Of a stretch of DNA of 64,000 nucleotides, positions 52,694 to 53,541 are shown in pieces. The stretch spans positions 1,674,001-1,738,000 of the forward strand of contig CM022369.1 in NCBI GenBank assembly GCA_011800155.1, written 5' to 3'. Source of the stretch: Flammulina velutipes. Lineage: Eukaryota; Basidiomycota; Agaricomycetes; Agaricales; Physalacriaceae. Both the position numbers and the translations under genes were made by a program. The notes beneath the pieces were generated by a model. It saw only the letters and a list, made by a program, of their open reading frames with translations, was not told where the DNA came from and did no database searches. Position 1 is the stretch's first letter. Each line of letters opens with the position of its first letter.

Positions 52694-53541
52694 CTACACG
52701 ATAATACACTTGGTCTTCTTCTCTTTCTTCTGTGGCGCACCATTCATAGGTCCCACATCTACATTTCGTGTCTGTCGCAGTGCTCGCACGAGATTCATGA
52801 AAAGACGTTCAACGTTTTGTGCTGTTTTCGCCGATGTTTCGATAAATTCGCAGCCAAATTGCCGCGCGAGTGCAGCGCCCTCCTCTTTTGACACTTCTCG
52901 TTCATATGTCTTGTCGCATTTATTGCCCACGAGCATGAAGATGGGGTCGCCTCTCTTTACTCGTCGCATTGACTGGCGGAAGACTTCCAGGCGGTCGAAG
53001 GTTGAGCGGGATGCGATTGAATATACAAGGATAAAGCCTTGGCCCTCCCTAGGAGTAGATGAATATTAAGCGATTTGAGAGACACTGGGTGATAACTAAC
53101 CGGACCCATTGATCTCGGAGTGTGGCGTACTCCTCTGTAATACGGCGTCAGGAAGATTAAGATAGGTCGCCGCTGCAACTCACCCTGCCCCGCAGTGTCA
53201 ATTACTTCTACAAAGCACATCCGATTGTCCACGACCAGTTGCTTTCGGTAAGCGTCCTCTATCGTCGGGTCGTACGTCTGGAAGCATGGAATATGAGCGG
53301 CTAGGAAATATGGGGCCACTAATGAGACACACCTCTGGTGGTGAGGAGAAAATTCAGAATCAGTGTTGGAGACAGGGCGAGTGCAAATGAAGGACATACC
53401 AACAAAACAGTTGAGCGTAAACTAGAAATCAGACGGTAAGATGGGACGAGATACAGAGGGCAGGAGAGGACGCACCTGGACAGCCAATGCTGTCTTGCCT
53501 ACACCACCATCACCAAGTACAGCTACTCTCCAATTGTCCAT
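52694..53541 (-). CDS. ras: Ras-family small GTPase with a 2-nt exon
   Basis: This is a membrane-tethered GTP switch. Exons include 53476-53541 ([20 protein letters not shown]), 53400-53421 (FTLNCFV), 53333-53334 (AG) and from 53277 on ([18 protein letters not shown]). Motifs are the P-loop GDGGVGKT, the effector loop [11 protein letters not shown], the switch II DTAGQEEY, the base-binding NKCD and ETSAK, and a C-terminal CIIV CAAX box after a Lys-rich segment (QKKEKKTK), so prenylation is expected. Family members of this GDGG type stand close to Ras2/Rsr1. The glutamate of VET in switch I can be made only if the 2-nt exon is used. The unspliced stretch 53278-53399 is stop-free and in frame, so gene finders will be tempted to retain it. 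Confidence 0.92.

Follow-up and report, generated by a model that had tools for sequence, protein, structure and literature searches.

A Ras gene lies on the minus strand (53541–52694) of the 64 000-nucleotide stretch of Flammulina velutipes DNA analysed here (the window), and its effector region poses a question of frame. The exon that ends in GTTG at 53400 and the exon that begins with ACGTAC at 53277 are separated by 122 nt, and joining them directly shifts the reading frame and leads to an early stop. How, then, is codon 30 completed? An earlier note on this DNA had given these letters and coordinates, which are correct, and had proposed that the AG at 53333–53334 is an exon of its own. 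Our analysis confirmed, from DNA and protein sequences, the observation of a 2-nt exon in Ras switch I. We put the probability at about 93% that this exon is real, that it is constitutive and supplies Glu30 of a functional Ras, and that the two short introns around it are removed in turn.

The gene, from a genome of 38.1 Mb, encodes an intact Ras GTPase of 190 residues. The Pfam Ras profile (PF00071) matches over the G domain with 177.8 bits (1.6e-52; cut-off 21.6) and the C-terminus, CIIV, is a CAAX-type end. Among the matches listed, the closest named protein is that of Hymenopellis radicata (Physalacriaceae, Agaricales), with 93% identity. The model consists of six exons (66, 22, 2, 94, 34 and 355 nt) and five introns (54, 65, 55, 49 and 52 nt), all on the minus strand. 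Exon 1 (53476–53541, 66 nt) runs from the ATG to Gln22 and contains the P-loop; it is followed by intron 1 (53422–53475, 54 nt, GTGCGT...CTAG, phase 0). Exon 2 (53400–53421, 22 nt) encodes FTLNCFV and the first base of codon 30. Intron A (53335–53399, 65 nt, GTATGT...CACCAG, phase 1) precedes the 2-nt exon AG (53333–53334), which supplies the second and third bases of the switch I codon 30 (GAG, Glu), and intron B (53278–53332, 55 nt, GTGTGT...TTCCAG, phase 0) follows it. Exon 4 (53184–53277, 94 nt) encodes TYDPTIED... to DTAGQ. The remainder comprises intron 4 (53135–53183, 49 nt), exon 5 (53101–53134, 34 nt), intron 5 (53049–53100, 52 nt) and exon 6 (52694–53048, 355 nt including the stop), which ends with CIIV. 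Exons 1, 4 and 5 and introns 1, 4 and 5 were placed by spliced alignment. Branch-like motifs were found as patterns in both introns that flank the AG: CTGAT in intron A (A at 53360; two further such motifs present) and CTCAT in intron B (A at 53294; one further such motif present). In an alignment, the residue numbering equals that of KRAS through switch I, so that the two absent bases complete codon 30.

Spliced alignment was carried out with an aligner written for this analysis that allows exons of any length. It chose the 2-nt exon AG with all three protein queries and, with S. commune Ras1p as the query, at each of four intron penalties (10, 14, 18 and 22). The AG is flanked by CACCAG on one side and GTGTGT on the other, and both introns are canonical GT–AG introns. 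We also enumerated the in-frame, stop-free GT–AG paths with at most two introns, each of at least 25 nt. There are 81 such paths (218 with GC donors permitted), and only one of the 81 gives F-V-E-T; the conserved protein is thus unreachable by a canonical path without the AG exon. Three of the 81 keep both the length of 190 residues and TYDPTIED, reading V-E-T, V-G-T and R-C-T, and V-E-T alone is the family sequence. The V-G-T path uses an alternative 2-nt exon, GT (53332–53331), by way of the weak second AG of CAGAG and a weak donor. A switch I of the subfamily type, free of insertions and deletions, was obtained only with the 2-nt exon AG. Skipping the AG leads to an early stop, so it is needed for the reading frame, and retention of intron A alone or of intron B alone breaks the frame. 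The 122 nt between the exons are stop-free in frame, as the earlier note had pointed out; this is weak evidence because retention of a single intron breaks the frame. The same note had described VET as the exact Ras switch I sequence, which holds for the fungal Ras subfamily but not in general, since KRAS has VDE. Asp versus Glu at codon 30 was considered as a mark of a fixed AG and was dropped because VET also occurs in ascomycete ras-2 proteins.

The splice sites were scored with matrices built from 46 introns: 43 from ten paralogue loci and three from the Ras gene itself. The paralogues came from 20 regions picked from 47 Ras-profile matches, many of these matches being exons that belong to one gene. 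Each region was aligned to the Ras query; the ten loci with poorer alignments were left out of the splice statistics before counting. Compared with the 46 other introns, intron A has a donor of 8.5 bits (72nd percentile) and an acceptor of 4.6 bits (41st percentile), and intron B has a donor of 9.0 bits (83rd percentile) and an acceptor of 5.6 bits (63rd percentile). No other GT in the 122 nt comes near these two donors; the runner-up scores 1.6 bits. Intron lengths of 65 and 55 nt had been called normal for this genome; 55 nt is, whereas 65 nt lies slightly above the 47–62 nt range of 39 of the 43 paralogue introns, the longest of which are possibly misplaced. Of the other AGs, two within intron B score 3.6 and 5.4 bits and the second AG of CAGAG scores −1.3 bits. 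The 5.4-bit site, an acceptor-like TAG at 53302–53301, beats the intron A acceptor and ends 23 nt ahead of the true intron B acceptor. A reason for bypassing it could be that the CTCAT closest to that acceptor (A at 53294) is situated downstream of the TAG, although another CTCAT lies upstream. In a chance test with 20 000 dinucleotide shuffles, the pattern yAG/NN/GT leaving an intron of 45 nt or more on either side arose in 4.1%, with a Glu or Asp codon in 0.9% and with a Glu codon in 0.27%; no shuffle combined a Glu codon with both sites scoring at least as high as those observed (0/20 000).

Protein records of relatives bear on the same junction. Three protein searches, from which the best 120 of 1585, 1498 and 1270 matches were taken, gave 188 distinct proteins. 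The entries are representatives of 90% clusters, which could hide minor isoforms. Those without an NCBI source (114 of the 188) were termed transcript-like and the remaining 74 have an NCBI genome source. The transcript-like status rests on an unbroken ORF and mostly short contigs and not on a label; the set includes S. commune Ras1p (P0031) and one transcriptome entry (P0023). Its ORFs span 183–317 residues, most of the contigs are about 1 kb in length (maximum 7.9 kb), and the entries are most likely cDNA, as judged from these unbroken ORFs and short contigs. All 114 have FV(E/Q)T at the junction, 113 with Glu and one with Gln. The NCBI-source proteins among the best matches listed are of two kinds: 38 of the 74 are intact at V-E-T and 36 are broken there. 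Both sets point indirectly, at the level of protein records, to conservation of the split in relatives.

The 36 broken models comprise 19 without V-E, three that skip exon 2, two with V-G-T and 12 that are otherwise altered, most of which carry residues resembling intron. The 19 models without V-E represent an in-frame single-intron compromise that the window sequence also offers. Ten of the 74 proteins also occur in lgn or jgi; each of these ten is intact at the junction. In the 64 genome-only proteins, intron 1 is intact in 58, the microexon junction in 28, and introns 4 and 5 in 63 each; breakage at the microexon junction exceeds that at intron 4 (Fisher p = 7e-13) and at intron 1 (p = 2e-8). 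Five of the six models that fail at intron 1 are also broken at the microexon junction, which indicates that exon 2 (22 nt) as a whole is hard to annotate and not the AG alone. Two annotated Ras proteins, P0066 (Mycena galericulata) and P0078 (Jaapia argillacea), have Gly at residue 30 (V-G-T), which is most likely to be a shifted splice site and not a true substitution. P0055 (Armillaria novae-zelandiae) lacks V-E, is garbled at intron 4 (DYCGAGPEEY for DTAGQEEY) and is altered beside intron 5.

A scan of viral contigs and one of genome contigs turned up no DNA of a relative, but several of the broken models retain apparent intron residues that can be read back to DNA. If the DNA has the form yag/AG/gt, keeping the end of intron A and removing intron B gives x-E-T, where x comes from an NYA codon. 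Glu precedes TYDP in seven read-through models, and x fits NYA in all seven (I, I, I, T, V, P and L); a fit of seven in seven has a chance of 0.9% if the models are independent, and two of the seven are from Lentinula. For Armillaria ostoyae the read-through, if complete, corresponds to an intron A of 51 nt, and for Lentinula guzmanii to one of 69 nt. A full read-through of 116 nt in Mycena indigotica has Q-R-Y at the sole position compatible with cag/AG/gt, giving 56 + 2 + 58 nt; the window equivalent is Q-R-C at 65 + 2 + 55, a match at the amino-acid level that could be due to chance. The Desarmillaria ectypa model reads V-E-V-C-L, which is the window translation with intron B kept. P0084 (V-E-V-R-T) agrees loosely with AG/GT, and P0026 and P0085 are not diagnostic. 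Taken as protein read-throughs, several of these models imply a yag/AG/gt at the same place.

Eight species with broken models were looked up and belong to the Agaricales, Boletales, Russulales, Polyporales, Gloeophyllales, Corticiales, Jaapiales and Hymenochaetales; the sampling thus covers eight orders of Agaricomycetes. The 2-nt exon looks old because the broken models span these orders and, judging from proteins and faulty annotations, it seems to be common to many Agaricomycetes, where it would have a common origin. It follows from the 38 correct models that the AG is already accommodated, in one way or another, by some pipelines, a fact that as far as we have found has apparently gone unremarked. 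The damaged effector regions of 36 of the 74 NCBI-source homologues examined are most likely never made by the cell, so that structure prediction, comparative work and signalling studies on mushroom Ras may start from wrong sequences. Pipelines aided by RNA-seq may also miss the exon, as it shares the letters AG with the acceptor.

In the mechanism that we propose, codon 30 would be split, with G closing exon 2, AG forming its own exon and exon 4 opening at codon 31. Introns A and B would each be recognized by intron definition, as a unit paired across its own length, and excised sequentially, in either order; simultaneous occupation of both sites flanking so short an exon would hardly be feasible. 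The donor context of intron B, GAG/GTGTGT, would be unchanged before (cag-AG) and after (GTTG-AG) removal of intron A; with the last three exon-side bases GAG the same, neither order should weaken this donor. Inclusion would be constitutive and would place Glu30 at the start of switch I.

The alternative that survives best presupposes the 2-nt exon and overlaps with this mechanism, differing in that inclusion would be regulated: skipping of the AG, a zero-nucleotide ratchet or retention of both introns (+40 residues) would tune Ras output. CAGAG/GTGTGT (53327–53337, minus strand) can indeed be read as an AG/GT ratchet point and the stop-free 122 nt would permit dual retention. The second AG is, however, a poor acceptor (−1.3 versus 4.6 bits), its use would reduce the exon to zero length and put the mRNA out of frame, and single-intron retention breaks the frame. 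The insert of about 40 residues in switch I that the earlier note had envisaged is seen in none of the 114 transcript-like homologues, nor is any other in-frame variant, in a set that would not list frameshifted forms and whose clustering may conceal minor ones. We regard regulation of this kind as unlikely. Equally doubtful is a related idea, in which the AG has been kept across many orders because the forced two-step splicing order acts as a kinetic checkpoint on Ras; if it were true, skipping, ratcheting or retention of one intron would yield no Ras, and splicing conditions would set Ras dosage.

A single intron with the ends GT...CC (120 nt, 53399–53280) would make the AG exonic by attaching it to the downstream exon, and the mRNA would be identical. 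The microexon AG matches the last two letters of intron B, so proteins and cDNA cannot distinguish this reading; reads across the junction, which had been put forward as a check, are likewise ambiguous since GTTG-AG-ACG also maps as this one intron. Introns longer than 100 nt do exist (121 and 143 nt among the 43 paralogue introns, some possibly misplaced). To our knowledge GT–CC introns form no accepted class, and such an intron would leave unexplained the mid-way yAG/AG/GT (0.27% of shuffles; 0/20 000 with equal scores), the Glu ahead of intron B in all seven read-throughs and the Q-R-Y of M. indigotica. It is very improbable. Somewhat less credible again is one intron of 126 nt (53403–53278) with the in-frame donor GTTGGT, which would remove Val29 and Glu30. 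The resulting protein of 188 residues still matches Pfam Ras (168.6 versus 177.8 bits) and 19 of the 74 NCBI-source annotations have this type of reading, but V-E is missing from none of the 114 transcript-like homologues and the deletion would fall in switch I, where length is kept in KRAS and in the classic Ras L014 of the same genome. A sequence error, which the earlier note had allowed as an escape, is scarcely conceivable, and so is decay of the gene: no support for either was found, the ORF shows no other damage, and the annotations of 36 further proteins go wrong at this very junction.

The proposed constitutive 2-nt exon has its nearest parallels among very small exons described elsewhere. 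The 1-nt exons of plant APC11 and VPS55 are established (PMC4674806, PMC8831610), and for that of APC11 Guo and Liu favour intron definition, perhaps combined with recursive stepwise removal (PMC4674806). The cases have in common a nuclear exon that is too short for exon definition, conservation over a large clade and omission by annotation; they differ in that the plant exons were tested, whereas the present exon has 2 nt, is from a fungus, lies in a Ras switch region and is predicted from sequence. The P450 genes of Phanerochaete chrysosporium, also an agaricomycete, likewise combine small introns (45–55 bp) with very small exons, although the shortest reported there is 6 bp (PMC1184071), compared with 2 nt here; 6 bp is the smallest basidiomycete exon that we found in the literature surveyed. 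According to PMC11121469 (2024), functional microexons were previously undescribed in filamentous fungi, fungal microexon work has been limited with tests in fission yeast only, and inclusion of the Xlr2 microexon of Trichoderma virens is a regulated switch. Both Xlr2 and Ras would thus have microexons in filamentous fungi, but that of Ras is best read as constitutive. Exons of 1–3 nt are also described for Drosophila homothorax (a 3-nt microexon; PMC7392893) and placozoan cox1 (a 1-bp exon; PMC5436844), although the former belongs to an alternatively spliced animal gene and the latter is mitochondrial and not spliceosomal. No 2-nt nuclear exon was found in the literature searched, and the available parts of PMC3990503, PMC13149111, PMC5034255 and PMC12409088 do not mention one; an earlier report in subscription papers is possible. 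The exon described here is remarkable for its place in Ras switch I and for its apparent spread across mushroom orders. As part of a central signalling gene, it would serve as a natural experiment on the splicing of exons too short for definition, in which Ras function reports the outcome.

The split between Val29 and Thr31 is apparently a trait of this gene lineage, because no intron is present at that position in the classic Ras L014 (FVDEYDPT; its alignment is imperfect near the second intron) or in L022, which was called Rap-like by eye. Other small exons were observed among the paralogues of the genome. A Rab5-like gene (L015; G000:C2:557500-558900, minus strand) has a likely 6-nt exon, TCACTT (GQERYK-SL-APMYYR), between introns of 59 and 48 nt; an additional 4-nt exon that the aligner proposed near its STIG motif is doubtful. 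In a Rab11 gene (L017; G000:C1:3975300-3976700, plus strand), with 142 of 156 residues identical to a RAB11A chain, a 5-nt exon, CAACT, lies in the part that encodes the P-loop (S-N-L), between introns of 51 and 47 nt.
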